From a virus, in the IMG/VR virus record IMGVR_UViG_3300011114_000900, positions 1 to 38,910 of that record: a stretch of DNA of 38,910 nucleotides; one strand, given 5' to 3'. Shown piece by piece: positions 10,352-35,259 of this stretch (its first letter is position 1; each line of letters begins with the position of its first letter). The translations under genes and the position numbers were made by a program. The notes beneath the pieces are model-generated. The model had not been told where the DNA came from. It did no database searches and was given only the letters and a program-made list of their open reading frames with translations.

Positions 10352-10353
10352 TG

Positions 10354-11001: not shown

Positions 11002-13061
11002 CACCGTCTCCCAAGGATCTCTGCGTACACCGTGAACCCGGCGAGGACATCAGGTCCCGCCGTATCCTCCGTCGTGAACGACAACCGAAATGACTTCCCC
11101 CGCCAGCGGAGCGGAGTCTTCTGTCCCATCGTCTGGGCTGTACCGACCGGGACGGCTCCAATCGTAAAGATGCCGATCGGCCGCCCACCGATATCTTCGC
11201 GCGCCGTCACCGACACCGTATCGAGCGCGAGCATGTCGAAATCGCCCGTAGCCTCGATCCGATACACGACGTTACCGGCTACCTGGTAGTTGGGGATGAT
11301 GAAGTTCCCCATCTTGATGCGCGTGGTCTTGCGTGGCTCCTCAAGGGTCAGCCAGCCCGTGACATATTCTGTCGTATAAGTTGACCCGGCATCGGTGTAG
11401 GTGCCTTGGTCAAACGTATAGACCCGCCCCCCAGAGCCGCCGAGGATGAGGTCGGAGTTGTTCCTGACCGCCATCACACGCTGCGCGCCAATCTGACCGT
11501 CGAAATCAGCCCAACTGGCCCCGGCAAGAAGCCGCCCGTCATCAGCCAGGAAGTTCGCGTAATTGTAGACGTAGAGTTTGCTGGCAATCTTCAGGACGAT
11601 CCAGCTACGCCGAGGATAGTTGACCGCCTGAATGTCTGGCTCATTTGGATTTTGCCGCACGACATCACGAATAATGCCGCGCAGTGTGTTCTTGATCTGC
11701 TCAGACAGGTTCGACCGCTGAAGATTATTGGTGTTTATCAGAAGGCTAATGCTCAACAGCCCGTCATATCCTACGAACGACACATCGTTGCCGGTATTTA
11801 CGAATCCATCAGGGCTGACAAGACCCTGCGGGAACAGACCAGCAGGCGTCAGATCCGTGGGGTTTGTGCCGCGGTAGGCATAGACCGCGCGCTCCGAGCC
11901 GACGATGAGGTAATTCTGGAACGTCTCCAGAGCCTTCACGGTGTCGGCGCCGTCCTGCTGTGTGCCGATATTCAGCGTCCGTGCTTCCAGCGTCTCGGAA
12001 TCGACCGTGAAGTCCTGAATGTCATCCACGCCAGACGCCACGATCTCGCGCTTGTTTCGGGCATCGACCATCCAGGCGCGCCCGAAGTGGACATGGATGA
12101 ACGACGCGATCGGCATCGCAGACTTGTGCAGGGTGATCGTATCCCCCGCGACCATAGTCGGGATGCCAGGAGACAGGAACAGGCCGGAAGACGCTACCGA
12201 AGAGATGAACGTGGCGGCATTACGTGTCGTATTGTGGACGATATCCCCAGCCCTGGTCTCCGTCGTCAACCAGTTCGAGACGCGATCTGCGGACACGGAA
12301 ACGAATGTTCCCGATCCCGCAACCCCGGTCACGGTCGCCACGTTGTCAGGGACCCCATCGACATCGACCACGTTAAGCTCGATCGTGTCGTAGATCTTGT
12401 AGGCGTCTCCAACCGTAGGCTCCCCGCCGACACCACCGGTCGCCGTGCTTCCAAACCCGAGCGCTGCCGCGGACATCGGCGTGTGGCTGACCCTGGCCGA
12501 AGTAACAGCGGTTACAATGCCGTAGGAACCGCGTTTAGCGTTGAAGACGATGTCACCAGCCGTGACAAAGGTCGATGCCGTCCAGTCCACAATGTCTGGA
12601 TCTGTCAGGGCCGCGGCTGAGGTAGAGGCGCCGCAGAAACCCTGCTCCATGATCGGTTCAAGCTGCTCAAAGTCACCCGACACGCTACTGATGGCAACCT
12701 GGCGGTCGTAACCGTTCCAGAACACCAACTTGTTGCCGAACTGAATCGACCGCACTCGCGCGGCTGTCGTAAACGCATGAACCTGCGTCCACCCATTGTC
12801 GATCCGCCGGAAGATGATGCCTTCAGCCGAAGCGAACAGCGTTTCGTTGCCGTCGTTGTCCACGTATTCGTGCAGACCCGTGACCGTCCCCTTGGTCGGC
12901 AAGTCGCCGCTGACAGCAACATACCCAGGCCGCTTTTCCGCCCCGCCCGCGGCATTGATGAAGCGGTTGCGGAAGCGGATAGCGTAATCAACCGGGACTT
13001 CAGTCTCCGTGAAGTTGGTCGCAAGCCCGCGTTTGGCGATATCGTAGAACCGCTCGCCCAT
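11001..13061 (-). CDS. Tail nozzle / hub protein (T7 gp12 or P22 gp10-like role)
   Basis: A 686-residue beta-rich protein. The start contains the pattern F-R-N-R-F-I-N-A-A-G-G-A-E-K-R-P-G-Y, typical of podovirus tail hub or nozzle proteins that begin with an N-x-I-x-x-x-G-G-x-x-K-R-P-G type motif. The body shows repeated short beta units like V-F-W-N-G-Y-D-R and Y-A-Y-R-G-T-N, suggesting a beta-propeller. It lies directly after the adaptor gene (one-base overlap) and before the ejection-protein set, the usual podovirus order. It would close the portal channel and form the distal tail tube. Family placement is by motif and context. Confidence 0.7.
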   Translation of the reverse strand: MGERFYDIAKRGLATNFTETEVPVDYAIRFRNRFINAAGGAEKRPGYVAVSGDLPTKGTVTGLHEYVDNDGNETLFASAEGIIFRRIDNGWTQVHAFTTAARVRSIQFGNKLVFWNGYDRQVAISSVSGDFEQLEPIMEQGFCGASTSAAALTDPDIVDWTASTFVTAGDIVFNAKRGSYGIVTAVTSARVSHTPMSAAALGFGSTATGGVGGEPTVGDAYKIYDTIELNVVDVDGVPDNVATVTGVAGSGTFVSVSADRVSNWLTTETRAGDIVHNTTRNAATFISSVASSGLFLSPGIPTMVAGDTITLHKSAMPIASFIHVHFGRAWMVDARNKREIVASGVDDIQDFTVDSETLEARTLNIGTQQDGADTVKALETFQNYLIVGSERAVYAYRGTNPTDLTPAGLFPQGLVSPDGFVNTGNDVSFVGYDGLLSISLLINTNNLQRSNLSEQIKNTLRGIIRDVVRQNPNEPDIQAVNYPRRSWIVLKIASKLYVYNYANFLADDGRLLAGASWADFDGQIGAQRVMAVRNNSDLILGGSGGRVYTFDQGTYTDAGSTYTTEYVTGWLTLEEPRKTTRIKMGNFIIPNYQVAGNVVYRIEATGDFDMLALDTVSVTAREDIGGRPIGIFTIGAVPVGTAQTMGQKTPLRWRGKSFRLSFTTEDTAGPDVLAGFTVYAEILGRR

Positions 13062-15168: not shown

Positions 15169-16599
15169 TCAGACTCCGTAAATCGAAGGGTCGAGGCGGG
15201 TGTAGACGATCTCGATCGCCGCGTTTGCACTCAGCGCCGCGATGCTGCCAGATGCTGCCGCGACGTTGATGTAAACCGGTTGGGCCGTAGCGCCAGACAC
15301 CGCGCGATTTACGCCCGTGTAGCCAAAAGCCACCGGAGCTGTTGACGAGATCACCGAATACACCCCGGCCGCCGAAACCGAAACCGATCCCAGCAGATCC
15401 GAGGTGAAGGTCGTCGGGGAGGTCGTGGCCCGGACCGTCGCCTCACCAGCCGCGGCCGTGGCGGCGATGTAATTGATCTCGGTCAAGACTGCCCCAATCG
15501 GGATGTAGCCAACCAATTGGCCAGACACGACTCCGTTGGTGCTGGTGATGTTCGTCGTCAGCCGAGACAGGCGTCCCCAGCCAATATCCTCGCGGCCGCT
15601 GAACTGTCCGGTCAGGCGTCCTGTTCCGATTGGCCCCTGGAAGTCGGTTTCCTTCTGACCCACGCCAGGGAAGCCGTCTCGCTGGCCAAACCTGGTGAAT
15701 GCGATTTCAGCCACCGCGGCAAAGCTCGTCAGGGGGCCGTTACCGGATACAAGCGTCATCTGCACCGGTTGGCTCGATCCCGTGTTCAGGGCGCGAAAGA
15801 TCGTGCGGGCCGCGGTAGCCAGGGCGATCTTGTAAACGCCAGCCGCAGACACCCCGATTGACCCAAGGTTATCGCCATCCGTCCCAGCGGAAAACCGGAC
15901 AGTCGCGTCACCGACAACGCCGCTTTTCACGTAGAAGTTTATCTCGTTCAGAAGCGCGCCATACGGGATCACCCCGACCACCTGAGCGGTGACCGGCGCA
16001 GACTGAGCCGTGGACTGCTGCACGGTCTGAAGGTTGGCGTAGGTGTTCCTCGTCGGGATGCCGGTATCCTGGGCGCCGGAAACGATCGGCCCCTGGTACG
16101 TCGTGTCCGCCGCTTTCCATGCCGCCGAAATGTCTGGGCGCTGATCGAGAGCGATGCGCGTGTAGACAACCTCAATCCACGCCGCTGAGGAAAGGGCGCT
16201 GGTCGTGCCAGAAATGGCCGCGGAACTGAAGTAAATCGGGGTGGGGTCAGCCGAAACCTTGGCGTGACCATAGGGAAGCGTGGTCTGAGCCGTCGCCGCG
16301 TTCACGTAGGCCCGGTAAATGGCGTTGCCAGACACCGTCACGGAGCCGAGATTGTCGGATCCAGCGGCCGTCGTGCCAAAGCGGAACACTGCCTCCCCGG
16401 TAAATGCCCCGGCCTTCCAGACGTTGATTTCGGACAAAATACCATCCGGCGGCAGGACGGCAACCGCCCGGCCAGTCACGGGAAGCGTCGTGACGGGGGT
16501 CCAGGTGGTGAATCGACCGTAGGCTTTCGTGGTCGTTCGAGGCGCACCGGTATCCAACCCAGACGCCAAAGGCCCGAGGAACTGCGTTTTGTGGCTCAT
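15169..16599 (-). CDS. Structural protein made of three tandem homologous domains
   Basis: A 476-residue beta-rich protein built from three copies of a roughly 145-residue unit at about 5-150, 167-304 and 318-470. Each unit opens with an aromatic-x-G-P motif (F-L-G-P, Y-Q-G-P, F-Q-G-P), has an E-I-N at 57, 219 and 374, an L-G-S followed by a V-S element near 84, 245 and 403, and ends in Y/F-T-R. The G-V-Y after V-S-A-A-G is also shared by units 2 and 3. It is transcribed just after the terminator downstream of the major capsid gene. Role unknown; a trimeric-like decoration or fibre built by intragenic triplication is plausible. Confidence 0.7.
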   Translation of the reverse strand: MSHKTQFLGPLASGLDTGAPRTTTKAYGRFTTWTPVTTLPVTGRAVAVLPPDGILSEINVWKAGAFTGEAVFRFGTTAAGSDNLGSVTVSGNAIYRAYVNAATAQTTLPYGHAKVSADPTPIYFSSAAISGTTSALSSAAWIEVVYTRIALDQRPDISAAWKAADTTYQGPIVSGAQDTGIPTRNTYANLQTVQQSTAQSAPVTAQVVGVIPYGALLNEINFYVKSGVVGDATVRFSAGTDGDNLGSIGVSAAGVYKIALATAARTIFRALNTGSSQPVQMTLVSGNGPLTSFAAVAEIAFTRFGQRDGFPGVGQKETDFQGPIGTGRLTGQFSGREDIGWGRLSRLTTNITSTNGVVSGQLVGYIPIGAVLTEINYIAATAAAGEATVRATTSPTTFTSDLLGSVSVSAAGVYSVISSTAPVAFGYTGVNRAVSGATAQPVYINVAAASGSIAALSANAAIEIVYTRLDPSIYGV

Positions 16600-18689: not shown

Positions 18690-19601
18690 TCAGTCCTCCA
18701 CCGAAACAGCCCTGGTCAGGGCCTGCTTCTGCTTAAGGTATAGGGCATGCGCGTCCTTGGCCGACTTGGCCATAGCCCCGCGACCACCCATGAACATCAT
18801 CTCGGCAACCGCTCGCTCCTGGGCACTCAGTCCCGATCGCTCCTGGGCAGGGGGCCGAGAACTGCGCGGCGCCGAGAAAGCGCGACGAACCGGATTGCGC
18901 GGGGCATCATCCTCATCGTCAGGCTCCATCAGTTTTGCCATTCGACGATCGACTTCGGCCAGGATCTCCCGAATCGAGGCATCCGCCATATCGGCAGAAC
19001 CGGCGACTCGGCGGATCATGTCCTGGGTAGTCGCAAACTCTGGGTGATCGGGCCGCGCCCACGGACGGACAGGTTCTTCATCGTCACCAACCTGCTCCTG
19101 CCATGTCTTCAACACCTTCATCTCGGTGTCCGAAATGGCCGGAGCCTGCGGTGCGGGAGCTGGAGAAGCTTTCGTCTCCTGCTTGATCTCCAGGAGGCGT
19201 TCGTTGACGTTGATGAAAGCTTCCGTGTCGCCGGTAGCCAGAGCCTCGCGGGCACTCTGTTTGAGTTGCTTGAGTTCCGCCTGGGTCTTCTCGTCCTTCA
19301 TCCCGGCGTACATCGTCTCAAGTGCCTGCTGGAGCTTTTTGTTCTGCTCCGCGAGAAGATTGACCTGGCGCTCCGCCCGGCTGGCTTTCTCGTTGGCTTC
19401 CTTGGTGTGGCGATAGAGCCGGTTGAAGCGAGCCTTCAGCTTCGCGTCTTCGATCTCAACGAACTCGGCCCCGTCCTCTTCCCGCGGCTCAGGTTTTGCC
19501 TCTGCCTTGGGTTCTGGAGGCTTGGCCTCCGGCTTGGGCTGCGGAGCGGGGGCCGCCCCGACTTCATCGTCGGAAACCTCAATCGTATTTGCCGTGGTCA
19601 T
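18690..19601 (-). CDS. Scaffolding-type protein
   Basis: A 303-residue, acidic, proline/lysine-rich protein. The N-terminal 45 residues are disordered (P-Q-P-K-P-E-A-K-P-P-E-P-K). Residues 55-140 form a strong coiled-coil region (R-H-T-K-E-A-N-E-K-A-S-R-A-E-R-Q-V-N-L-L-A-E-Q-N-K-K-L). A second linker and then a helical C-terminus rich in R, M, K and A follow. Its size, composition and location just upstream of decoration and capsid genes fit a scaffold that nucleates procapsid assembly. It overlaps the GroES gene by ATGA, suggesting coordinated synthesis. No protease motif is visible. Confidence 0.7.
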   Translation of the reverse strand: MTTANTIEVSDDEVGAAPAPQPKPEAKPPEPKAEAKPEPREEDGAEFVEIEDAKLKARFNRLYRHTKEANEKASRAERQVNLLAEQNKKLQQALETMYAGMKDEKTQAELKQLKQSAREALATGDTEAFINVNERLLEIKQETKASPAPAPQAPAISDTEMKVLKTWQEQVGDDEEPVRPWARPDHPEFATTQDMIRRVAGSADMADASIREILAEVDRRMAKLMEPDDEDDAPRNPVRRAFSAPRSSRPPAQERSGLSAQERAVAEMMFMGGRGAMAKSAKDAHALYLKQKQALTRAVSVED

Positions 19602-19897
19602 GCTGCCTCCTCGATGATGCCGATGACGTCCTCTTCCTGCATGACGAACAGCCCAGGCTCAAACGCAACGGGCTTTGCCGCCCATTTGCCGAACAGGACA
19701 CGGTCGCCAGCCTTCAGGGATTCGCAGGTTTCGCCAACGGAGACGATCACGCCTTCGTCGGGAATCTGCTTGTCTTCAACGGCTTCGGGGACTTTGAACC
19801 CCATCTTCGCAAGGCCTGTATATTTTGAAGCAACGGTCGATTGAAGGGTTTCCGCACGGACGACCACCCGCGCGAAAAGCGGTTTCAGCTTCCTCAT
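19598..19897 (-). CDS. groES: Phage-encoded GroES-like co-chaperonin
   Basis: A 99-residue Cpn10-fold protein. It opens L-K-P-L-F-A-R-V-V-V-R like GroES and ends with E-D-V-I-G-I-I-E. The G-V-I-V-S-V-G-E strand and L-K-A-G-D-R-V-L-F-G-K are typical. The segment G-F-K-V-P aligns with the host mobile-loop G-I-V-L-P. It has a strong AGAGGAG ribosome site. Phage co-chaperonins such as T4 gp31 replace host GroES so that GroEL can fold the phage capsid protein. Here the gene is fused by ATGA to the scaffold gene, upstream of the capsid gene, which strongly supports a capsid-folding role. Confidence 0.85.
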   Translation of the reverse strand: MRKLKPLFARVVVRAETLQSTVASKYTGLAKMGFKVPEAVEDKQIPDEGVIVSVGETCESLKAGDRVLFGKWAAKPVAFEPGLFVMQEEDVIGIIEEAA

Positions 19898-24650: not shown

Positions 24651-25082
24651 TTAGTCCTCCGTGATGATCGTGCCGCTCAAGATGCGGGGCGTCACACCAT
24701 TGCTGACCGCGATGTTTGGAGTCAGGGTGCCGCTATAGAGGATCTTGCCAGTTCCAGCGGAATCAGTACCGACCGAGAAGAACGCAGCAGTCGTTGTCGC
24801 TCCGCCTGTGGAAGCCGCAAAATCAAGATTTGCCGCCAGGGCAACGGTGTTGGCCGATACGACAAATGCCGCAGACGTCCTGGCCACGCTCGCGCGAACG
24901 TAGGAGGTGTAGGAGATCTCTGACGTCGATTGGTTGCCAGACTCTCCGGGATCTGCCGTGTGCAGCGCAAAATAGAACGCGGTCGCAGCGGAGGTGGATG
25001 CGTTCTGCGCGATCGTCGCAATCGTCCCGCCGTTAAAAATCAACTTCAGCAGGTCGTTCTCAAAGACATCACCCTTGGACAT
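24651..25082 (-). CDS. Phage structural protein with S-K-G-D-x-F-E-N-D-L-L start
   Basis: A 143-residue beta-rich protein. It starts S-K-G-D-V-F-E-N-D-L-L-K-L-I-F-N, a motif widely seen in phage virion proteins often called tail fibre or hypothetical. It then has A-L-H-T-A-D-P-G-E-S-G and S-Y-T-S-Y-V-R-A-S-V-A-R-T. The ATG overlaps the end of the portal gene by 14 bp. Function is not established; a minor virion component is most likely. Confidence 0.65.
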   Translation of the reverse strand: MSKGDVFENDLLKLIFNGGTIATIAQNASTSAATAFYFALHTADPGESGNQSTSEISYTSYVRASVARTSAAFVVSANTVALAANLDFAASTGGATTTAAFFSVGTDSAGTGKILYSGTLTPNIAVSNGVTPRILSGTIITED

Positions 25083-27342
25083 TGCTATCTCCTTCGTGTC
25101 TGATCGTTACCTCGCGAGGTTGAGACACGATCTTAACTTCTTTCGGACCAGTTATGGCCGTGGTCATGACCTTCATCATCTCGGCCATTTGCTTGGCGCC
25201 GTTCTCAGATGACTGGGCAACAGCCTGCTGCTGTTCGCGGCTTGCCTGTGTCCTGGCGGCCTCTGCCTCGCGCTTGACCTCGGCATCCATCATGATCTTT
25301 TCGCGATCGATCTGGGCCTGGATCTGCAACTTCATAGTTGCCAGCTCGCGCTCAAGATTCATCTTCTCCTGGGCGACCGCGCGCTCATTGGCCAGACGCA
25401 TTTCCTGGATCATGCGCTCAGACTCGATCCGCATCTGTTGCAACTGCTGATCCCCGGCAATCCTAGCCTGCTCGATCTGCGTCTGAACCTGCTGCTTCTG
25501 TTGCTCCAGCATCATCTCCTGCTGGGTACGCTGCTGCTCAAACTGAAGCTTTGCCGCCTCAACCTGGGCCTTCTGCTGTTCAGCCATAGCCTTTGGATCG
25601 GGCGGCGGAGGCGGCATTTCCTCAATGCTGCGCGGCAGCAAACCATCGATGCTGTCGATCTCCATCTCCTCAAGGAGACGGCGGGAGATCCGCAGCAAGG
25701 CGTCCTGGTTGTTGGCGATCAGAGGATTCTTCGTGGCAAACTCAAACAGGAACTGCGCCTTCTGTATTCTGGCCTGCTGGCTGGCTAGACGCGGATCTGC
25801 CACCGGCATGATCATCATGTCCTGGGCGAAGTCCTCGGCTGTGACCATTGCGGCTTGAGCGCCGTCAGGGGTCAGCGTCACAAATGCCTCATACCCACGG
25901 AAATACAGGCTGTTCAGGCGATAGATCTTGTTGAGTTCCTTCGACCAGGAATTGAGCAGGAACTCCTGAACCGATGTGAAGACCGTCAGCGCCTGGTCGA
26001 TCAACTGGCTGACCGTGTTGGGCTGAAGGACCTTGGTCACATCCCCAGACACCGCATCCGTCGTGGCGCCGATTCGCTGCGCTCGTGCCTCAAGAGCCGT
26101 CATCGCCTGCATGACAGTCGGGGGCGGGGCGGGGAACGAAAGTGTCTTGATGCCCTTCTGGATGTCGTCCGTGCTGGCAGAAACCGCCTTCAACGATCCG
26201 AGTTCGATTTTCACCGGCCCCTTGTTGATGTTCAGGCTTTCGGAGATGAACCCGGACATGTTGCCAGCGATCGACAACGTCGTGGCGTCAATGAACTGCC
26301 GCAGCAACTTGTTGATGGCGATGTTCGTGTTGCCGAGAAGGAACCCCAACCCAAACCCGTAAAAGCCGTCAGGGTTCACCAGGAACCGGTAATGGGTGTA
26401 TTCCTCAATCGGCATACGCCCGTTGGTTGGCCGCCCGGTGTTATCCACCTCGTACCGCACCTCGATCCGCAGAAGCTCCTCAGAGGTGATGTCAACCCAG
26501 ACCTTGTAGGGTTCGGCAATGCCATCGCCATCAAGGTCGAGATCGCGATGCTGCTCGATGATCTGAGCGTAGTCGTCACTCTCGGCATTGACCTGGACGA
26601 TGCCCGTATCCTGGTCGTTCTGGTCCTGGATCGGGGATCGGTACTGGCCAATTTGCATAGGATCGGGGGCCACGAGGAAGTAACCCTCGCTCGCCCGGAT
26701 CCGGCCATCATTGAGGGCTATGTGGATCAGTTCCGTCTTCCGCGGCACCTCGTCAATGTTCACCGGGCCAGCAGAATAAGGAACAAACAGGTCCTCCGCA
26801 CGCACGGGACGCACAACAATCCGGTTCATCACCGGGTCGAAATACGTCTTTGTGAAGTCGGAGCCGTGGACCGCGACGCGCAACAGCATCGCAGCCTTGT
26901 CCTCCTTGTAGGACTGCTCCTTCACAAACAGTGACCATTGAAGGTACTGGGCGACCCGCTTTGCCCTCTCCGCAGAGCCTTCAACCTGAGGCCCAACAGG
27001 GATGGCGGCAACAGGCATACGAGACGGGAAGAAAGCCTTGTACGCACGAGCCTGGAAGCTGTTGCAGGCTTCCGTGAGGATGCCAAGGCTCTCCGTGCTG
27101 CTTCCCTCCCAAGGGCGGTTTACCGGCGCGTCCTGCTGGTTGTAGACAGACACCCAGTCGGCGTGCATGGCATCCCATCCCTGCCGGGACAGGCGATCGG
27201 ACTGAAAGTCTTCGAGGCAAAGCTGCGCGATCTCGCGGCGAGCTTCCTTGTCCAGCCCCTCGGCAACATTGACCAGGAACGCGGAAAGAATCGGCCGCTT
27301 CTTGCGCTTGATCTTGCTGCTATCGCCCCGGTATTTGCTCAT
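25069..27342 (-). CDS. Portal protein
   Basis: A 757-residue protein that I assign as the portal. It has N-terminal W-D-A-M-H-A-D-W-V-S-V-Y-N and W-E-G-S-S-T-E-S segments, a T-K-T-Y-F-D-P core strand, Y-R-F-L-V-N-P-D-G-F-Y-G-F-G-L-G typical of large portals, and then A-R-A-Q-R-I-G-A. From about residue 580 a very long Q/E/R-rich coiled coil runs close to the C-terminus, matching the barrel extension of P22-type portals. The length is close to the 725 residues of P22 gp1. It sits downstream of the terminase genes with the glycan island in between. The start forms an ATGA overlap with the upstream gene. Confidence 0.85.
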   Translation of the reverse strand: MSKYRGDSSKIKRKKRPILSAFLVNVAEGLDKEARREIAQLCLEDFQSDRLSRQGWDAMHADWVSVYNQQDAPVNRPWEGSSTESLGILTEACNSFQARAYKAFFPSRMPVAAIPVGPQVEGSAERAKRVAQYLQWSLFVKEQSYKEDKAAMLLRVAVHGSDFTKTYFDPVMNRIVVRPVRAEDLFVPYSAGPVNIDEVPRKTELIHIALNDGRIRASEGYFLVAPDPMQIGQYRSPIQDQNDQDTGIVQVNAESDDYAQIIEQHRDLDLDGDGIAEPYKVWVDITSEELLRIEVRYEVDNTGRPTNGRMPIEEYTHYRFLVNPDGFYGFGLGFLLGNTNIAINKLLRQFIDATTLSIAGNMSGFISESLNINKGPVKIELGSLKAVSASTDDIQKGIKTLSFPAPPPTVMQAMTALEARAQRIGATTDAVSGDVTKVLQPNTVSQLIDQALTVFTSVQEFLLNSWSKELNKIYRLNSLYFRGYEAFVTLTPDGAQAAMVTAEDFAQDMMIMPVADPRLASQQARIQKAQFLFEFATKNPLIANNQDALLRISRRLLEEMEIDSIDGLLPRSIEEMPPPPPDPKAMAEQQKAQVEAAKLQFEQQRTQQEMMLEQQKQQVQTQIEQARIAGDQQLQQMRIESERMIQEMRLANERAVAQEKMNLERELATMKLQIQAQIDREKIMMDAEVKREAEAARTQASREQQQAVAQSSENGAKQMAEMMKVMTTAITGPKEVKIVSQPREVTIRHEGDSNVQG

Positions 27343-29291
27343 CCGTACTGGTCCTCGAAGCTAGGCAAGTTTCCCTTGGTGTTCTGCCAAAGCCACGCGA
27401 CCATGCCAGGCCCGTGCGCGTCCCAATGGATCCAAGGGCATTCGTTCAGGAACCGGCTGAAATCCTGCGCCTGACAGAGAATGTCGCGATCGGTCCAGAA
27501 CTGTTTTTTGGCCTGGCCCGCGCCGACTTCCATCAGGAAGTATTTCTCCGTGCCGTCCTGATGCCTCGCGTTCTTGTCGATCTTGGAGTCGTCAAGATGG
27601 CAAGAATCAAAGGCATAAAGCCCGATTGAACTGAATCCAAGGAACTGCCAAGCCAGGATCATAGCACGCCCGGCAGACGAAGATCCTCCCCCCATGAGGA
27701 ACTTCTTGTGGCCATCCGGCAAGACGGAGACCTCATCGGCACCGACAGCCGCATGCCATCCGACCACCCTGCCTCCGGTATCCAGCAGGCGCTTGACGGT
27801 CGAGGGGTCAACCATCGACGCGCAGAAGTAGATCACCCCCGGATGGGCCGCCGGAAGAAGATCGGCCCGCGGCTCTCCATGCGTCGAAATACCCTCGTGC
27901 GGGCGCGGATCCAGCAGGACGCAGGCATGGGGAGTAATCCCGGCATCTGTGAGTTTGCGGTGAGAGTGCTTGACGCAGAAGACAAAAGCCCCCTCGTCCA
28001 TTTCCTTACGGATGCTTGCAATCGTCTCAGGCAGTTCTAGGCTAGGGCCAGCCGAGACAATGACCGCTCGCCTGCGATGAGGTTTGGTCGATTTGACCCA
28101 TGTCTTCATCAGTTCAAGATTGGCCCTGATGTTGGCGCGGATCGTGTCATCAGCGACGCAGTTTTGCGTCTTGACCAGCATGTTTGTCTGGTAAGCGCCA
28201 TTCGTAATGGCCAGGGCGTCTTTCTTTGAGATGACCTCAAGCTCACGGTGGCGGAAGACAGATAGATCGCCGGGAAACTTCATGGTCCGATCGACAGCAA
28301 GGTGGATGTAACCGCCACCCTTGGCCATCTCAATACTGTCGAAGGCAATCAGATCTGTTTTGACGTTGTTGATCCCAAACCTGGTCGTATCGACATGGGC
28401 GCCAGCGGCGTCCTGTGAGTACCAGCCCCGGTAGATGACTCGCTTGCCGTCCAGTTTAGCGACCATCTCCCGCAGCGCTTCAACCGGTTGCATGTCGCAA
28501 TCCAGGACGAAGACACTGGCGTCGCTGTCGTGTATTTCGTCTCCAGGGCGGACGATCTTTGCCGTCTCCCCATCGATCAAACGGGCCAGGATCTCCGCAT
28601 TGGTCATCTCAACCTTGCGGTTGCCCTTTTTGTGGATAAAGTATTCATTGAGAACGGACGCCTCAAAAGCATCCAGTCCATGCGGGCCAAGTCCTGCCGG
28701 GGCCAGGTCTTCCCATACCGAATCTGCAAACTTGGTATGCGCCACTAGCATGATCATGAACGCGTGGCTGTCGTGCAACTCCTGCAACTTGAGGATGTTG
28801 TCGCTTTCGTAGAGATTGACGTAACGCTCAAGGAAGTCTTTGCCCTTGCGGCGCAGATTGAACGACATGAACCCGCACTCTGGATGCGGAGCGCTATCGG
28901 CGCGAGACAGCAGGGCGCCGTCCTTGTCCTCAGGGCATATCTTGGCCAGCAAATCGTTTGTGATCGGCGCTCTCGTTTCAACGTCTCCATCGAGCCAAAT
29001 CAGATAGTCATAGCCCTCCGCGTCCCGCAGACTTGCCTTTAGGGCAAAGACTTTGTGGCAGAACCGCAGCAGATCCTGCCGGTAATCGTACCCTGGCTTA
29101 CTGGGATCCAATGCCCGGCTCGCATGACGGGTCTTGAATGCCTTGAACTGCTCATCAAGAGACAGGTGCCAGTCCGTGATGACAAGTTTCGTGCAATTCT
29201 GGGGCCAAAACCTATCAAACGTCTCAACCCAACGTCGGCCGTAGAGTTCGTAGCCGGTGTCTGACCAGCTTGTGACGACGAGTGCCTTCAT
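27339..29291 (-). CDS. Glycosyltransferase fused to a MAF/DUF115-like domain
   Basis: A 650-residue two-domain protein. Residues 1 to about 250 are a glycosyltransferase A-like domain with a D-G-D (DxD) metal site at 101-103 in I-W-L-D-G-D-V-E-T-R. From about 408 a second domain has V-I-V-S-A-G-P-S-L, C-V-K-H-S-H-R-K-L, G-I-T-P-H-A-C-V-L-L-D-P and a G-G-G-S-S-S-A-G-R-A motif, matching the 6-hydroxymethylpterin pyrophosphokinase MptE-like/MAF group. MAF proteins transfer nonulosonic acids to flagellin. A phage carrying both domains in one polypeptide suggests glycan transfer to a protein or surface sugar. It overlaps the FkbM gene by four bases. Confidence 0.75.
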   Translation of the reverse strand: MKALVVTSWSDTGYELYGRRWVETFDRFWPQNCTKLVITDWHLSLDEQFKAFKTRHASRALDPSKPGYDYRQDLLRFCHKVFALKASLRDAEGYDYLIWLDGDVETRAPITNDLLAKICPEDKDGALLSRADSAPHPECGFMSFNLRRKGKDFLERYVNLYESDNILKLQELHDSHAFMIMLVAHTKFADSVWEDLAPAGLGPHGLDAFEASVLNEYFIHKKGNRKVEMTNAEILARLIDGETAKIVRPGDEIHDSDASVFVLDCDMQPVEALREMVAKLDGKRVIYRGWYSQDAAGAHVDTTRFGINNVKTDLIAFDSIEMAKGGGYIHLAVDRTMKFPGDLSVFRHRELEVISKKDALAITNGAYQTNMLVKTQNCVADDTIRANIRANLELMKTWVKSTKPHRRRAVIVSAGPSLELPETIASIRKEMDEGAFVFCVKHSHRKLTDAGITPHACVLLDPRPHEGISTHGEPRADLLPAAHPGVIYFCASMVDPSTVKRLLDTGGRVVGWHAAVGADEVSVLPDGHKKFLMGGGSSSAGRAMILAWQFLGFSSIGLYAFDSCHLDDSKIDKNARHQDGTEKYFLMEVGAGQAKKQFWTDRDILCQAQDFSRFLNECPWIHWDAHGPGMVAWLWQNTKGNLPSFEDQYG

Positions 29292-29893
29292 GAATGCCTC
29301 CAGGTGAAGATCTGGTCCTTGTTCACCCGTGCTGCCGGGCGATACCCCAGATTGCTGAGATAGATCGTGGTGTCGGCGTCAGGCATCTCAACGATCAGGA
29401 CCGGGTGATCCCGCCTAAGCGTCATCGCGGCCCCTTTCAAGATCGAAAACTCGCTGCCCTGGGTGTCGATCTTGATCAACTGCACATGCAGATAGTGGAA
29501 GTCGTCAATCGTGAAGACGCGAGTAGGTCCGTCATCGCCGGGGATAAAGCTCCTGGCGCCAGAGTTATGATCAGCATCGATGTTGACGTAACCCCAGCCC
29601 TGCTTCTCTCCGACCGCGGCGTGGATTGGGCGGATCCAGGGCATCTGCTTCACGTTCTCGACCAGGCAGGCGTAGTTGTCAGGATCCGGCTCAAAGGCCA
29701 GAACCTCGGCAAACTGCGACATCCTCCGTGTAAAGATGCCGACATGCGCTCCAGCGTCGATTGCCACGCCATCCATTTTCGGGACAAACGTCATCGCCAG
29801 GTCAAAGATCGGACGCTGGTAGTTCCTCACACCCCCAAAGAAGTGCTTGTCGCTCGCAGGCATGACAATGCCATCACGAATTTCCTGCCTCAC
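29288..29893 (-). CDS. FkbM-family methyltransferase
   Basis: A 201-residue SAM-dependent methyltransferase of the FkbM type, which usually methylates sugar hydroxyls in surface glycans. Seen: motif I A-I-D-A-G-A-H-V-G-I-F-T (about 44-55), E-P-D-P-D-N-Y, V-F-T-I-D-D-F, I-K-I-D-T-Q-G-S-E (the typical FkbM K-I-D-x-x-G-x-E) and L-I-V-E-M-P. The start is a GTG in a GTGA overlap with the preceding gene, with a GGGAGG site. It probably methylates a glycan made by neighbouring transferases. Confidence 0.85.
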   Translation of the reverse strand: MRQEIRDGIVMPASDKHFFGGVRNYQRPIFDLAMTFVPKMDGVAIDAGAHVGIFTRRMSQFAEVLAFEPDPDNYACLVENVKQMPWIRPIHAAVGEKQGWGYVNIDADHNSGARSFIPGDDGPTRVFTIDDFHYLHVQLIKIDTQGSEFSILKGAAMTLRRDHPVLIVEMPDADTTIYLSNLGYRPAARVNKDQIFTWRHS

Positions 29894-30630
29894 TCAAACC
29901 TCCCGCGGACTTTCATCATGTGATCGTACTCAGCCATCCACCAGCCCGAGAACGCGCAGTCACGCATGTGATCGAACCATGGACCGCCATCAGTGAAGTG
30001 CATCAGGCGCGGTTTGATCTTCCGGGACGTATGGCCAACCAGGAAGTTCCAACCGAGATCGAGGTCACCGATCTCCCTGTCCTTCAACCACTGGAACCGA
30101 TGAAGGAACGAGCCAGGCTGCGTATTGACGACCTCTGGCGTGAGCTTCTGGTTTGATGGATGTCCGCAGTTCCAGAGAATCACCGAGGACCAGTTCTTCC
30201 GCGGATAGGCCTTCTGGATCTGGTTGTCCATCTTTCGCGAACTGGTTGGCTGGTGATCGACCTTGGCTACCATCACTGCGTAGTCGTCGTTCCTGGCGGC
30301 GGCAAGCTTGCCGATGTCGTCAACCCAAAGTACGTCGCAGTCGGTAAAAAGCGCCCAGCCCTTGTAGTTCTGCAACGCCGGGACGAGGAATCGAGTGAAC
30401 GCAAACTCAGTACTGAACGGCTGCCCATCGAGGGCATCAAACATGTTGCCGCTTTCATTGACCTCCCAGCGGCGAGAGAAAAGCCCCTGATCCCTTAGGT
30501 TTTTGTGCTTCAAAGCCTGCACATAGAGCGGAATAGTCGATTTCCGTTGGGCGGAAAACATGGCGACGTCATAGGCATCCTTCTCCCTGGCGTCGAACCC
30601 TATCCAATAGGGGAATGGATCAGTCTCCAT
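29890..30630 (-). CDS. Glycosyltransferase, DxD type
   Basis: A 246-residue GT-A-like glycosyltransferase. The metal-binding motif is D-C-D-V-L-W-V-D-D-I, and a later R-K-N-W-S-S-V-I-L-W-N-C-G-H and L-M-H-F-T-D-G-G-P-W-F are typical acceptor and closing motifs in family-8-like transferases of phages and bacteria. The N-terminal I-G-F-D-A-R-E-K-D-A-Y fits the nucleotide-binding start. It overlaps the upstream methyltransferase gene by 11 bp. Donor and acceptor sugars cannot be told from sequence. Confidence 0.8.
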   Translation of the reverse strand: METDPFPYWIGFDAREKDAYDVAMFSAQRKSTIPLYVQALKHKNLRDQGLFSRRWEVNESGNMFDALDGQPFSTEFAFTRFLVPALQNYKGWALFTDCDVLWVDDIGKLAAARNDDYAVMVAKVDHQPTSSRKMDNQIQKAYPRKNWSSVILWNCGHPSNQKLTPEVVNTQPGSFLHRFQWLKDREIGDLDLGWNFLVGHTSRKIKPRLMHFTDGGPWFDHMRDCAFSGWWMAEYDHMMKVRGRFE

Positions 30631-31135
30631 CGAACACGATCTCCAGCTTGGCCGGGTACTTCGGCAGCATGAGGGGAAGTGCGTCGAACATGCCGTACCA
30701 CCAATCCGGTGACTGAACTGTCAGATGGGCGTTTCTCCCATCGGGCAAGGTCTTCTTGGCCTTGCGGGTGGAGATGGCAAAGAACGCAAACTTGTCGGCC
30801 CTTATCACAGCCTCAAAAATTGCGGCCATGATCTCCGTGCCCTCAAGATGCTCTAGAACATCGCAGCAGATCACGCCATCAAATGGCCGCATCGGATGAG
30901 GCAGCTTGTCGATTCCGAGAACCGCAGGATCGTACAGGACGGGCTTTGCCACACCCCACTCCTCGTGAAGCTTCTGCTCGTCGTACTGCATTCCCTTCCC
31001 GCTGCCAAAGTCGAGAAGCGTTTTTGCGCCATGCTTGTCGATTAGAGCCTTGATTGCGGGCGACCACTTCGCCGTGCTGTGGCCGGGAAAGTATCCCGAT
31101 TCGTGCATCTGCCTGTAGAGATCAATGTTTTTCAT
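30620..31135 (-). CDS. Class I SAM methyltransferase
   Basis: A 171-residue Rossmann-type methyltransferase. Motif I is L-L-D-F-G-S-G-K-G-M, then F-D-G-V-I-C-C-D-V-L-E-H-L, the usual D-V-L-E-H motif of sugar and small-molecule methyltransferases. I use the ATG at 31135, which forms an ATGA overlap with the upstream gene and starts with a helix carrying Y-R-Q-M-H. The target is unknown; island context suggests a sugar or lipid-linked intermediate. Confidence 0.8.
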   Translation of the reverse strand: MKNIDLYRQMHESGYFPGHSTAKWSPAIKALIDKHGAKTLLDFGSGKGMQYDEQKLHEEWGVAKPVLYDPAVLGIDKLPHPMRPFDGVICCDVLEHLEGTEIMAAIFEAVIRADKFAFFAISTRKAKKTLPDGRNAHLTVQSPDWWYGMFDALPLMLPKYPAKLEIVFDGD

Positions 31136-31644
31136 GACAATTTCTCCCCAATAACCCACATGTCCAAGCCCTTGCGCGTGAATTTGGCGTCATGAGACGC
31201 TTCACGAATGAAGAACCCGGCAGCATTCATCTCCTTGATAAACTCGCTGACCGTCCAGAGGTACTGGTGAGGCACTCCACCAAACCACTGCTCGCCATAC
31301 AAAGCCCACTTGCCGATGTTGACCAGTCCGTCCTTGGTCTCAATCGAAGGGGCCAGAGATCCCTTTTCATAGAAGGCAATCGCGCGATCGAGATCAGGCA
31401 TCTCAACAGCGAGTAGGCCTTGGGGCCTGAGTTTTGCATACCAGAGCGGCAACAGGTTCACCGTCAGCCACCGCGGCATGGTCTGGATCGTGCCCACGCA
31501 GAGGATCTGGTCGATAGTTCCATCCCTGGCATCCAGGACGTCCTGGTAGTTCTCAATCAACATCCAGCCATACATTGGCTCTCCGCCCATCTTGAGGCGG
31601 ATGACATCTATGCCCTGTTCCTTGGCCCGGTCATTGATGTTCAT
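31132..31644 (-). CDS. Methyltransferase-like protein lacking motif I
   Basis: A 170-residue protein resembling the C-terminal half of class I methyltransferases: a hydrophobic strand before L-P-L-W-Y-A-K-L-R-P-Q-G-L-L-A-V-E-M-P-D-L-D, Y-G-E-Q-W-F-G-G-V-P-H-Q-Y-L-W-T and an A-G-F-F-I element. The glycine-rich SAM-binding motif I is not visible, so it may be a degenerate or non-catalytic partner, perhaps of the adjacent methyltransferase. It overlaps both neighbours by ATGA. Moderate confidence. Confidence 0.6.
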   Translation of the reverse strand: MNINDRAKEQGIDVIRLKMGGEPMYGWMLIENYQDVLDARDGTIDQILCVGTIQTMPRWLTVNLLPLWYAKLRPQGLLAVEMPDLDRAIAFYEKGSLAPSIETKDGLVNIGKWALYGEQWFGGVPHQYLWTVSEFIKEMNAAGFFIREASHDAKFTRKGLDMWVIGEKLS

Positions 31645-31970
31645 CTGACCAGCCTCTCACACGTAGACCACTTCATGTAGACCCGCGGCTCGTTCTCGGG
31701 CTTGAATGGCTCTGGATCTATCCTGACGACCAAAATATCGGCGCGTCCAAGCCACCGCTCGCCAGTTGCCCAGGCATCCTTCTTACGTTGCTTTGCCTCC
31801 ACCAGAACCCGATTTCCGTCCTTCAGGACAGCCTCGACGTCGTGGGGGAAGGCATCAAACGCACCAGACCCAGGTTGTCTGCGGGCAAGCAAGCCCAGCG
31901 ACTCAAACTGTTTGACGATCCATTGCTCCAGGCGCCGACCCTTGGCTTTGGCAGACTTTGCCTTGATCAT
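31641..31970 (-). CDS. PD-(D/E)XK nuclease, Hjc/VRR-like
   Basis: A 109-residue nuclease. Residues E15, D44, E58 and K60 sit in G-R-R-L-E-Q-W-I-V, P-H-D-V-E-A-V-L and V-E-A-K-Q, the order of a PD-(D/E)XK active site. It resembles archaeal Hjc and small phage resolvase-like nucleases, with P-G-S-G-A before the catalytic D. I use the ATG at 31970 (ATGA overlap with the upstream gene). Near the terminase genes it may resolve branched DNA before packaging. It is embedded in the glycan island without obvious link to sugars. Confidence 0.75.
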   Translation of the reverse strand: MIKAKSAKAKGRRLEQWIVKQFESLGLLARRQPGSGAFDAFPHDVEAVLKDGNRVLVEAKQRKKDAWATGERWLGRADILVVRIDPEPFKPENEPRVYMKWSTCERLVR

Positions 31971-32758
31971 GCCGCACCTCGATCGGTCTGGATCTCGCCA
32001 TTGTCGATCATGTGCCACCAGGCAACGCCTTCTTTCATCTCATCCACGGTGAAGTTCCTGCCAGCAAGGTAGGCAAGTGAGTTCAGGCGGGAATTGTCGT
32101 CGCCAAGCCAGTAATGCCCCTTGCCCGGCAAGAAGTTCTTGTTGCCAGCAATGCAGAACGGAATGCCACGCTGAAGGCACTCAACCGAAATCGTACTGTT
32201 GAAGCTCGCAAAGGCGCCAAGGTTCTCATAGAAGTCCGCGCCCTTTGGACCTTTCTCGACCACCTTAAACTCAAGATCCGGCCACATCTTCGTCGTCTGG
32301 TAGCGCCAGATGTCATCGAAGTTGTCGGGCAGGTTGGCGAACTTACGCATGAAATGACTTGGCGGCTGGTACGCCAGGATCTGGCCTTTCTGCGGTTCTT
32401 TGAACGGTTCCGTACGCAAGACGCCCCTATCCATGAACATGTCCCGCCGCTGGGTGTCTCGTGTCGTCGGTGGACGGTAAGTGTTGCTCTGGCATTCGCG
32501 AGAGAACCGGTAGAACCCATCCCACACATTCAGGCCGGACGAGCGGTTGAACATGCCGTGATCGACATGGATCCAGGCCTTCCCCTCATCCCTGCACCTC
32601 GATCGCAGGTCCTGGGCATACAAGATCCCGTAGTGCATGTTGTTTTGGCCAAGGTCATCTCCGTGCCTGGCCTGGACCGCCCCAAAGAACTGCCTGGCGA
32701 GAAACTCGCCCTCAGGGTGCGGAGCGCGCCAAGGGCTGAAGAACTTTAACGTGTCCAT
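31967..32758 (-). CDS. Putative GT-B-like glycosyltransferase
   Basis: A 263-residue protein with W-I-H-V-D-H-G-M-F-N, an F-Y-R-F-S-R-E-C-Q segment and F-A-S-F-N-S-T-I-S-V-E-C-L-Q-R-G-I-P-F, which resembles the donor-binding part of capsule-polysaccharide-type GT-B transferases (x-N-S-x-x-x-x-E-x-x-x-x-G-x-P). The start at 32758 is supported by a perfect AGGAGGTGAT site five bases upstream; a GTG two codons earlier is inside that site and less likely. It belongs to the island by position. Catalysis is not proven. Confidence 0.6.
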   Translation of the reverse strand: MDTLKFFSPWRAPHPEGEFLARQFFGAVQARHGDDLGQNNMHYGILYAQDLRSRCRDEGKAWIHVDHGMFNRSSGLNVWDGFYRFSRECQSNTYRPPTTRDTQRRDMFMDRGVLRTEPFKEPQKGQILAYQPPSHFMRKFANLPDNFDDIWRYQTTKMWPDLEFKVVEKGPKGADFYENLGAFASFNSTISVECLQRGIPFCIAGNKNFLPGKGHYWLGDDNSRLNSLAYLAGRNFTVDEMKEGVAWWHMIDNGEIQTDRGAA

Positions 32759-32760
32759 AA

Positions 32761-33063
32761 TCACCTCCTGAAAGTATAGCTTTCGTACCTCAATCCGCCC
32801 ATGAGCCTGGCCCAGGCCTCTTCGGCCTGATTCAGATCCTGTGGCATTTCTTCTCCGTTTGGATCGTACTCGTACACGATGATGATCGATCCATTGCCCG
32901 ACTTAAGCTGATTGACCGCATGTACGACATTTAGCGACCGAAGCCTGGCTACCGCATTGCGGGCGACTTCGGGCGGGAGGGCAAGAGCATGCTCTATATC
33001 CCTCGTCATGAATGGCTTCTTGTGCGTTGCAAGCCATTGCTCAACAAGTCTAGAAACGTTCAT
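32761..33063 (-). CDS. Small winged-helix-like protein
   Basis: A 100-residue protein with a helix-turn-helix style segment (T-R-D-I-E-H-A-L-A-L-P-P-E-V-A-R-N-A-V-A-R-L-R-S-L-N-V-V) followed by strands I-I-I-V-Y-E-Y, a winged-helix-like order. Its ATG overlaps the TerL stop by four bases. It could regulate the late block or aid DNA packaging. The similarity is structural guesswork. Confidence 0.55.
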   Translation of the reverse strand: MNVSRLVEQWLATHKKPFMTRDIEHALALPPEVARNAVARLRSLNVVHAVNQLKSGNGSIIIVYEYDPNGEEMPQDLNQAEEAWARLMGGLRYESYTFRR

Positions 33064-34553
33064 CGTCCCCTCCGAGACCTGACCGCATAAGGATCGCGCG
33101 CCGCTCCTCCGTGCTGACCGGCGAGTTCGCGCATCTCTTCATTATACCGGTCTTGTTCCGTTGTCACGCGCAGAAACTGGGACAGACAGAGCGTGGACTC
33201 ATCGTAAACATGATCCTCTTGCGTTCTCGTGGCGGGTCCCTTTTCAGGCTCCATCGTATCCAACACAAGCCCTGGAACCGTGCGCCAGAAATGCCTGCAA
33301 TTTGACGTAACGTAAAACATTGGCACTGTTTTCCCGTCGTCTGACCTGTCGCCAATCAGGCGATTCACTATTTCCGTGTAATTGGCTTTCCGATCCCTGC
33401 GGCCCTGCCTGAGAACGACGCGCCCATTGCTTGCAATCCGCATATTTTGCTGCGGGCTTGGCCCGTCCTGGCTGGCCCACATCTGCGGGTCGGCAATCCG
33501 CATGTCGATCGGAGGAAGATCCATCTCCTGCTCCAGCTTAAGGATCTCCCTGGCGACTTCGCCTGACGACATCCGGCATCCAATGTCAGCCTCGCCAGAC
33601 CAGCCATACCACTCCGCAAACCTGACAACCGCTCCCTTGGGCAGATGTACCTCAGGGAACCCATCCTTCTCCGCCAGCACCGCCCCTTCAGAGATCGTGT
33701 ACCAGCCTATTGAGAACGGCTTGGCGGTTCCCCAGTCCATAGCCATGATGTGGGTCCAGTGCCGCGGTGGCTTGAATGGCCGTACCATATGCCGCCCGCG
33801 TTCGAGCATGGACAAGGCTGCTCCAGCCACCACATCCCAGTCGCCGTCCCGGAGTGCCTTGGCCCGTTCGGCCGACAAGGCGGTGAAGGTTCCCTCATAG
33901 TTCTCAACATCCAGGTAAGGGTTATCGTCCATCCGCGCGGGGATGTAGACGCTTGTCCAGCCTTTGCTGCGTTTTGTAGCAGTCGTCCGGTCGTGGAACA
34001 TGTGCATCGGCGGCGCCTGCTCGATGAACACCTCCCGCAAGAAGTTATGCGCCGGGCCGCCAGGGTTCGAGCCAATCACAATCCGCGGAAACATGTCAGG
34101 CTGCGTTGGCTCCCACCGCCCAAGCCGCACACGAGTCCTCAGAAACTTGAGCTGATCCGGCAGAAACAGCGCGCCCTCATCGATCCCAAGCCAGTGCATC
34201 TCCGCGCCCTGGTATTTGAAGATGTCCGCCTGGTCCTCGGCAAAGCAAAACTGAAGGAAACTATCGTTGTAGAACGTCAGCTTCCGATCAGTCTCCTTCC
34301 AGGTCGCAACCTCTTGCGGAATCGCCATCTGCTGGATCGGGATCAGATGGTTGTCCTTCAACTCAGGATACGTTCGCCGGAAAAGATACGCCTGCAAGCC
34401 AGGGTTCTCCAGGCAAGCAATCAAACCATCCATCCGCAAGGCATGGCTCTTCCCGCCCCCAGCAGCCCCGCCATACATCACCTGTCTGGCGCGAACTGCA
34501 TGCAAAACGGCCTGCTTATCGTTTGGCTGGTAGTTGAGAGACCACTTTGGCAT
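33060..34553 (-). CDS. terL: Terminase large subunit
   Basis: A 497-residue packaging motor. Residues 28-36 (G-G-A-A-G-G-G-K-S) form the Walker A site, followed by F-R-R-T-Y-P-E-L-K and the Walker B-like L-G-I-D-E-G. The nuclease part opens with M-A-M-D-W-G and later has D-H-V-Y-D-E-S and D-P-Q-M-W. It hydrolyses ATP to pump DNA into the procapsid through the portal and cuts the concatemer. The start overlaps the end of terS by 38 bp. High confidence. Confidence 0.92.
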   Translation of the reverse strand: MPKWSLNYQPNDKQAVLHAVRARQVMYGGAAGGGKSHALRMDGLIACLENPGLQAYLFRRTYPELKDNHLIPIQQMAIPQEVATWKETDRKLTFYNDSFLQFCFAEDQADIFKYQGAEMHWLGIDEGALFLPDQLKFLRTRVRLGRWEPTQPDMFPRIVIGSNPGGPAHNFLREVFIEQAPPMHMFHDRTTATKRSKGWTSVYIPARMDDNPYLDVENYEGTFTALSAERAKALRDGDWDVVAGAALSMLERGRHMVRPFKPPRHWTHIMAMDWGTAKPFSIGWYTISEGAVLAEKDGFPEVHLPKGAVVRFAEWYGWSGEADIGCRMSSGEVAREILKLEQEMDLPPIDMRIADPQMWASQDGPSPQQNMRIASNGRVVLRQGRRDRKANYTEIVNRLIGDRSDDGKTVPMFYVTSNCRHFWRTVPGLVLDTMEPEKGPATRTQEDHVYDESTLCLSQFLRVTTEQDRYNEEMRELAGQHGGAARDPYAVRSRRGR

Positions 34554-35259
34554 CCAAAGGCTCCGGCGTCACATCAATCACACCATTGTCCCGAGCAATC
34601 TGCTGGTCACGGCTCACATTGATCTCGATCACCAGCTTCTCAGGGACAGACTCCTGCCGGAAAACCTCTTTCCCGACATTCCGCTCCAGCATCCACGCCG
34701 CGGCACGCCAGTCCTCAGACCGCATGATCTTCTCCGCCAGCGGCTTTGCACTCATCGCACGCGCTCGACTAAACAGCGCGTCAACCTTCGGATACCGCCG
34801 CCTCCACCCAGTCACAGTCTCCGGCGCAAGCCCGGAAGCCTCGCACGCCAGGCTAAACGGAACCCCGCGCGCCATGGCATCCAAAGCCTCAGCAGCCTCC
34901 GCCAAAGGAAAACCATCCCCAGCCTCACTCTGACACAACCCATCAACCCACATCTCAACACTCGTATACCCAGCCCAATCAACACCCTCAACCACAGGAA
35001 CTCCCATCCTCCGCTTCACAACAGCCTCCCTCTTGCAAACATCCCACCCCTCACTCCTCAACCCCAACTCCCGCCCATCAATACACCACCGATGCCGTAA
35101 CCACCACTCAGCCGCTCCAGCCTCCCAACACCGCCGAATCATCCCCCAGTCAACATACGCCCCAACCGCCCACCCACTCGGCAATGGCTCACGGGTTTGG
35201 TCAAATTTGATTTTTTTTGTAGGGAACAAGGCCCCTCCTATCGGTGAACGTGGGGACAT
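34516..35259 (-). CDS. terS: Terminase small subunit, with unusual N-terminal half
   Basis: A 247-residue protein. The C-terminal half has a helix-turn-helix of TerS type: G-V-P-F-S-L-A-C-E-A-S-G-L-A-P-E-T-V-T-G-W-R-R-R-Y, followed by D-W-R-A-A-A-W-M-L-E-R-N. TerS binds the packaging site and guides TerL, whose gene overlaps the end of this one. The N-terminal 120 residues are unusually rich in W, G, V and R because the coding strand there is extremely G-rich. The start is uncertain: ATG at 35259, or a TTG at 35229 that has an AGGAGG site four bases before it. Confidence 0.75.
   Translation of the reverse strand: MSPRSPIGGALFPTKKIKFDQTREPLPSGWAVGAYVDWGMIRRCWEAGAAEWWLRHRWCIDGRELGLRSEGWDVCKREAVVKRRMGVPVVEGVDWAGYTSVEMWVDGLCQSEAGDGFPLAEAAEALDAMARGVPFSLACEASGLAPETVTGWRRRYPKVDALFSRARAMSAKPLAEKIMRSEDWRAAAWMLERNVGKEVFRQESVPEKLVIEINVSRDQQIARDNGVIDVTPEPLDAKVVSQLPAKR
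35211..35218. other. T8 tract at GC-skew switch
   Basis: Eight Ts sit at the point where the plus strand changes from C-rich (34780-35200) to G-rich (35220-35480), within a short A/T-rich patch from about 35198. It also falls near the 5' end of terS, so it may be coding. Confidence 0.6.

Follow-up and report, generated by a model that had tools for sequence, protein, structure and literature searches.

A conserved cassette of glycosyltransferase-like and methyltransferase-like genes between the terminase and portal genes of an uncultured phage lineage

The virus record IMGVR_UViG_3300011114_000900, analysed at its full length of 38.9 kb (hereafter the window), contains seven consecutive, overlapping minus-strand open reading frames (ORFs) between the genes for the large terminase subunit (TerL) and the portal protein, named here in transcription order G7, G6, G5, G4, G3, G2 and G1. 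This island had been described in a first-pass annotation as a run of seven genes in the late packaging module; in the ORF listing all seven are present with overlaps of 4-11 bases, in one chain with TerL upstream and portal downstream. The island is conserved in order among close relatives and most of its genes are predicted to encode glycan-acting or methyl-transferring enzymes. With somewhat less than even confidence, it can be read as a late, cytoplasmic cassette that would build a methylated glycan on a virion protein of the phage itself while particles assemble, both the acceptor and the sugars being putative. The seven genes, with their predicted products, are as follows.

G7: 31967..32764, minus strand; 265 amino acids, retaining-Kdo-transferase GT-B fold (KpsC/WbbB/KrkA), where GT is glycosyltransferase and Kdo is 3-deoxy-D-manno-oct-2-ulosonic acid
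G6: 31641..31970, minus strand; Hjc-type PD-(D/E)XK Holliday-junction resolvase, 109 amino acids
G5: 31132..31644, minus strand; degenerate class I methyltransferase
G4: 30620..31135, minus strand; class I S-adenosylmethionine (SAM) methyltransferase with the LLDFGSGKG motif intact
G3: 29890..30630, minus strand; GT-A-type glycosyltransferase, phrog_28018
G2: 29288..29893, minus strand; FkbM-family methyltransferase
G1: 27339..29291, minus strand; 650 amino acids, GT6-like GT-A domain fused to a Maf-like (PF01973) glycosyltransferase

Among the IMG/VR contigs that carry both TerL and portal, G7, G6, G4, G3 and G1 occur in the same order in all 22 (22/22), with G2 in 15 and G5 in 10 of the same relatives, and those portal-bearing contigs that are without G1 start inside the portal gene. 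Pairwise ratios of nonsynonymous to synonymous substitution (dN/dS) are 0-0.23 for genes of the island, against 0.02-0.09 for TerL and portal; G5, G6 and G7 have no ratio in the pair that is furthest apart, where their dS is saturated. These comparisons indicate purifying selection on every island gene for which it can be estimated. A chance cluster of ORFs was ruled out by the conservation in 22/22 relatives together with this selection. A more distant counterpart (G1 identity about 30%) is found in the 50-kb contig QZKR01000020.1 (L084), which is filed under a Myxococcales metagenome-assembled genome and encodes TerL-G7-G2-G4-G3-G1N-G1C-portal, with a capsid homologue further on. Because it encodes homologues of the TerL, portal and capsid proteins of this phage group, L084 is, judged by its gene content, a phage or prophage sequence within a Myxococcales bin. 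Inside its island, between the G4 and G3 homologues, a radical SAM/SPASM protein is encoded at 5988-6932. In a further stretch, L091, the order is G7-G3-G2-G1-portal. The first-pass annotation had made its reading depend on the genes keeping their place in relatives, and within the lineage they do so, both in close relatives and in L084.

The largest product, G1, is predicted to combine two kinds of glycosyltransferase in one chain, with the following parts.

G1 GT-A domain, residues 1-230: 28602..29291, minus strand; stand-alone homologues in the Pelagibacter phage Mosig and the podovirus MW202713, and GT6 fold matches
G1 DxD motif, D101-G-D103: 28983..28991, minus strand; invariant in the G1 homologue alignment
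G1 Maf/MptE-like domain (PF01973), residues 386-565: 27597..28136, minus strand; assigned by Pfam

The PF01973 match (E 2e-14, 54 bits against a curated cut-off of 34.6), for a domain present in the homologues too, bears out the Maf part of the GT-MAF fusion proposed earlier, which is here refined to a GT6-like domain joined to a Maf-like (MptE/DUF115) domain. The AlphaFold model of G1 is weak (predicted local distance difference test, pLDDT, 65); its top Foldseek match is the Maf glycosyltransferase 5mu5, with GT6 galactosyl/GalNAc transferases next, and MptE (8sd5) is also matched, below 5mu5. Maf enzymes O-glycosylate serine or threonine residues of flagellin using cytidine monophosphate (CMP)-nonulosonates, and two of them tolerate CMP-Kdo (PMC11339370). 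G1 resembles these flagellin glycosyltransferases in carrying PF01973 above the cut-off and in matching 5mu5 first, but differs from them in its GT6-like fusion, its location in a phage head operon and its lack of a flagellin partner; no link to a flagellin gene was found, and the gene lies in the packaging/head operon in all relatives. A genome-contig scan with the G1 profile found no clearly bacterial homologue and returned the single phage-like contig L084, in which the GT and Maf halves are two separate ORFs. When G1, G3 and G7 were searched against the PDB by sequence profile, all matches were very weak or at chance level, and a literature search turned up no publication linking phage, DUF115 and glycosyltransferase. 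In the distant lineage L155, a weak Methyltransf_24 match lies between the GT and PF01973 parts of the fused enzyme (10729-12912).

G7 had been called a GT-B-like protein, a label that stands for the fold and is now corrected to a Kdo-transferase fold with eroded catalytic motifs. Its AlphaFold model reaches a pLDDT of 89, and all 22 PDB matches with E<=0.001 are Kdo transferases, with a two-domain match over the whole domain (Z 8-11.6 for the Kdo transferases; VIA Z 11.6 against KpsC). Pfam gave no match to G7 or to any of 12 homologues, and G7 is placed solely via its predicted fold. Homologues in cultured phages were found by profile, and none by tblastn. Two motifs are common to retaining Kdo transferases, HP and the nucleophile motif QXXXD (PMC12887879, PMC10148158), and the latter falls at the following site in G7.

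G7 residues 133-137 (QPPSH), site of the QXXXD nucleophile motif: 32354..32368, minus strand; from the homologue alignment

At this site the Gln is kept in 11 of 12 sequences, and the Asp position is occupied by H, D, P, Q, V, G, T or A. The (K/R)XHP CMP-binding motif is lost, with K-[GS]-P-K in most homologues; the distant phage homologue in L083 retains RPHP, and the homologue in podovirus MW202713 retains both the QXXXD and the HP motifs. G7 thus shares its whole-domain fold with KpsC (GT107), WbbB (GT99) and KrkA (GT140), but is shorter than these enzymes, with a variable Asp nucleophile and with HP missing in G7 and its close homologues. Because the Asp is variable and HP is lost, G7 is, by its predicted structure, a relative of Kdo transferases by fold and not a demonstrated Kdo transferase, and it may have another chemistry or a scaffold role.

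Most of the remaining assignments in the first-pass annotation were confirmed by profile searches. The FkbM methyltransferase, G2, matches PF05050 (E 6e-15, 56.2 bits against a cut-off of 22.7) and phrog_8156 (E 6e-25). For the DxD glycosyltransferase, G3, phrog_28018 (E 2e-57) is the best assignment, as the match to GT8 (PF01501, 13.7 bits) is under the cut-off of 24.3; its motif is located as follows.

G3 DxD motif, D97-C-D99: 30334..30342, minus strand; invariant in the G3 homologue alignment

The homologues in which this DxD is invariant include those of distant phages, and a C-terminal H-x3-G-x-P is kept there as well. The class I methyltransferase, G4, matches phrog_24759 (E 1.5e-19) and, under the curated cut-off, PF13489 (Methyltransf_23, E 3e-5), and its motif I (LLDFGSGKG) is invariant in the homologue alignment. 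Two further labels held in part. G5, described as a methyltransferase-like partner, belongs to the family, as PF13489 is matched by 8/9 homologues, but not by the copy in the window: in the alignment, the SAM-binding motif I is missing in the window and in the related sequence L002, whereas sister phages keep NLGCGG and HVVEHF. On this comparison the copy here is an eroded, degenerate class I methyltransferase. G6, described as a PD-(D/E)XK nuclease, is retained as a nuclease and relabelled as Hjc-like resolvase, from matches to phrog_244 (E 1e-6) and to the profile of a PDB Hjc resolvase (E 1e-5) and from a D/ExK catalytic pattern in which D44, E58 and K60 are invariant in the alignment. It resembles Hjc-type Holliday-junction resolvases in this profile match and catalytic pattern but differs in being encoded within a glycan cassette between TerL and portal; by these signatures it is an Hjc-type resolvase and probably not a glycan gene.

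The gene chain extends beyond the island into the following neighbours.

ORF of 100 amino acids between TerL and G7: 32761..33063, minus strand; winged-helix-like at best, with only a sub-threshold Pfam match
TerL (upstream flank): 33060..34553, minus strand; phrog_979, E 1e-33
TerS (upstream of TerL): 34516..35259
Portal or head-to-tail connecting protein, 757 amino acids (downstream flank): 25069..27342, minus strand; tblastn to annotated portals

The ORF at 32761-33063 is part of the same overlapping chain and is found in most, not all, relatives. G6 was listed as an ORF at 31641-32018 and G4 at 30620-31159; from the start codons, read directly, the conserved start at 31970 is preferred for the former and that at 31135 is more likely for the latter, both being chosen where an ATGA overlap arises and relatives agree. 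When the conserved starts are used, neighbouring genes overlap by 4 bases at eight of the nine junctions between TerL and portal, and by 11 bases at G4/G3. Across the island the opposite strand holds mechanical ORFs only, as expected for a GC-rich genome. The hydropathy peak of the island proteins is never >1.6 and none has a transmembrane stretch, so that the enzymes look soluble by sequence. Given this, and the overlap with the packaging and portal genes, late and cytoplasmic products are to be expected.

The island enzymes also have homologues in other phage lineages. A scan of viral contigs with the G3 alignment found at least 599 stretches that encode G3 relatives, and at 75 G3 loci, comprising 74 viral-contig stretches and L084 and not being independent samples, the counts are 48 for the G1 N-domain, 46 for G7, 32 for G2, 14 for G4 and 7 for the Maf half. 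In Pelagibacter phage Mosig, Caulobacter phages CcrColossus and C1, podovirus MW202512 and Stenotrophomonas phage DLP_6, a G3 homologue stands beside homologues of G7, G4, G2 and/or the G1 N-domain, as in the island, but by profile these five phages lack the Maf half of G1, and their neighbourhoods differ: the Mosig set adjoins ribonucleotide reductase (RNR), those of CcrColossus and C1 follow tail genes, and that of MW202512 lies between capsid and tail genes. In L155, as in MW202512, CcrColossus and C1, the G3 homologue lies within or after the structural genes. The cyanophage S-SCSM2R encodes KdsB and KdsA a few genes away from its G3 homologue, a neighbourhood that gives an independent hint of a Kdo-type sugar.

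The closest precedent is found in the Cluster O mycobacteriophages (Corndog, Catdawg, Dylan and Firecracker), which encode an O-methyltransferase and glycosyltransferases in the head operon (PMC4351075). In mass spectrometry their capsid peptides were under-represented, which the authors linked to the cassette, proposing capsid modification (PMC4351075). A later study is cited in PMC12691614 and PMC12619734 as reporting glycosylated mycobacteriophage virions (Freeman et al. 2023), and among the sources found, mycobacteriophages are the phages for which virion glycosylation by phage-encoded enzymes is described. Cluster O and the island are alike in having overlapping glycosyltransferase and methyltransferase genes embedded in a structural operon and adjoining the portal gene. 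The Cluster O cassette, however, occupies the slot between portal and protease, and the island that between TerL and portal; the enzymes of the former are drawn from different families (TylF, GT2-like and GT25-like), with no Maf domain among them. The island profiles gave no match at E<=1 in Catdawg, Firecracker and Dylan, the phages used for the gene comparison. By these comparisons the island is analogous, not homologous, to the Corndog/Catdawg cassette: the idea is the same, and what is new are the enzymes, the operon slot and the uncultured phage lineage. Glycan or methyl genes among head genes are thus seen in unrelated phages, namely Cluster O, MW202512 and Tetraselmis viridis virus S20 (L082). 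The last of these, annotated with a green-alga host, has a typical tailed-phage layout, and its genes for a GT-D fold, a weakly MptE-like protein and FkbM lie between the capsid region and the head closure protein Hc1 (6455-12038).

Beyond the statement that these enzymes are encoded together in a late operon, we infer the following steps. The Maf half of G1 would prime a serine or threonine of a virion protein with the first sugar, the GT-A enzymes (the G1 N-terminus and G3) would extend the glycan, G7 would add or scaffold a Kdo-like unit, and G2 and G4 would methylate the product. G5 would be a non-catalytic methyltransferase partner, and G6 a resolvase sharing the operon. In favour of this reading are the fixed place of the core genes between TerL and portal (22/22 relatives, and L084), their overlap with the head genes, the purifying selection, the Maf-like domain of G1, the soluble look of the enzymes, the glycan or methyl genes among head genes of unrelated phages and the under-represented capsid peptides of Cluster O. 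A more specific version, in which Maf-type O-glycosylation puts a methylated Kdo- or nonulosonate-like glycan on a head or connector protein before assembly, with Maf acting on a non-flagellin target alongside a Kdo-fold partner of changed chemistry, is unlikely as a whole. Several observations weigh against decoration of the virion. In cultured phages that have a related portal, assembly proceeds without the island: no island homologues were found in the stretches read of Alcaligenes phage QDWS535, HTVC023P, DSL-LC04, CRP-902, GB2A and Pag-Yong1, which share only the portal (identity 22-30%). No virion protein was found whose occurrence follows that of the whole island. The PF01973 domain in the weakly modelled G1 also resembles MptE kinases, and the signature residues of Kdo transferases (nucleophile Asp, HP motif) are not conserved in G7. 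Mosig, L134 and L161 have homologues of G3 or G1 next to genes for RNR or DNA polymerase, so that a virion target is not provable from position alone; the late-operon position invoked by the first-pass annotation holds, but the argument from it to decoration of the virion or host surface is weakened.

Two serine/threonine-rich proteins can be named as candidate acceptors. A 143-amino-acid head protein (phrog_240; window 24651-25082; 26% Ser/Thr) is encoded directly after portal, and was not found in the genomes G005 and G007. A 476-amino-acid protein (window 15169-16599; 21% Ser/Thr) directly follows the major capsid protein in 8/8 genomes compared and is possibly a decoration protein as well as an acceptor; it has no match in L084, and distant relatives have a short cement-type protein at its slot. 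Elsewhere in the window, a GroES-like co-chaperonin (19598-19897) is encoded between portal and major capsid protein, a position kept in distant cultured phages. A tail-spike-like protein (phrog_7458; 3158-4747) has no homologue in seven relatives compared, in which the rest of the tail module is common, and by this pattern looks like a swapped receptor-binding protein. The early regions of genomes G001, G002, G004, G005 and G007 encode proteins with ERF annealing, YqaJ exonuclease and DnaA C-terminal domains, with no DNA polymerase family among the Pfam matches listed.

We infer a glycan on the virion or the host surface, and the main rival to virion decoration is that the cassette modifies host lipopolysaccharide, capsule or flagellin glycans late in infection, for instance preventing new virions from sticking to cell debris or excluding rival phages. 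Maf and Kdo-transferase-fold enzymes usually build flagellar or surface glycans, the same gene set occurs in auxiliary regions of other phages, and KdsA and KdsB lie near the G3 homologue in S-SCSM2R, all of which favour host modification; the island nevertheless lacks a flippase and a membrane-anchored or lipid-linked transferase, there is no integrase for lasting conversion, and late expression, as the operon suggests, would leave little time before lysis, making this rival rather improbable. The island differs in the same respects from Gtr-type serotype conversion, in which a temperate phage encodes a membrane flippase and a lipid-linked transferase, as its hydropathy peaks are <=1.6 and a tyrosine integrase is absent from the eight records searched. 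Lysogenic conversion is disfavoured by this last result (0/8) and was rejected.

It is also conceivable, though distinctly unlikely, that there is no single pathway and the genes perform separate small jobs or are eroded passengers, with PF01973 acting on a nucleotide or pterin and not on protein. The losses of the SAM-binding motif in G5 and of the nucleophile and HP motif in G7 would fit such erosion, and PF01973 also occurs in MptE pyrophosphokinases, to which the G1 model likewise has a match; yet neither the DxD of G1 and G3 nor motif I of G4 varies among homologues, and the recurrence of the G1 N-domain, G7 and G2 with G3 (48, 46 and 32 of the 75 loci) points to a shared pathway. Very improbable is DNA hypermodification, by which the island enzymes would decorate modified genome bases before packaging. 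The neighbouring packaging genes and nuclease would suit it, and glycosyltransferases that hypermodify DNA have been described from viruses (Pyle et al. 2024, cited in PMC12619734), but relatives of Maf and FkbM have glycans or proteins as their substrates, a thymidylate-synthase-like gene was found in 0/8 records with positive controls detected, and one DNA methylase is the sole base-modifying family among 85 non-structural proteins, counting the best 25 of 27 families. A search for Tet_JBP (TET/JBP dioxygenase) also gave 0/8, but its positive controls gave no match either.

If the cassette does decorate the virion, then this fixed and selected gene set of an uncultured aquatic phage lineage, built in part from enzyme families found again in hundreds of further viral contigs, would make decoration with glycans widespread among aquatic phages. 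The island offers testable enzymes in the GT6-Maf fusion and in a Kdo-transferase-fold protein without the nucleophile, and, should a virion protein prove to be the substrate of G1, this would be a case of Maf-like protein O-glycosylation outside flagella.

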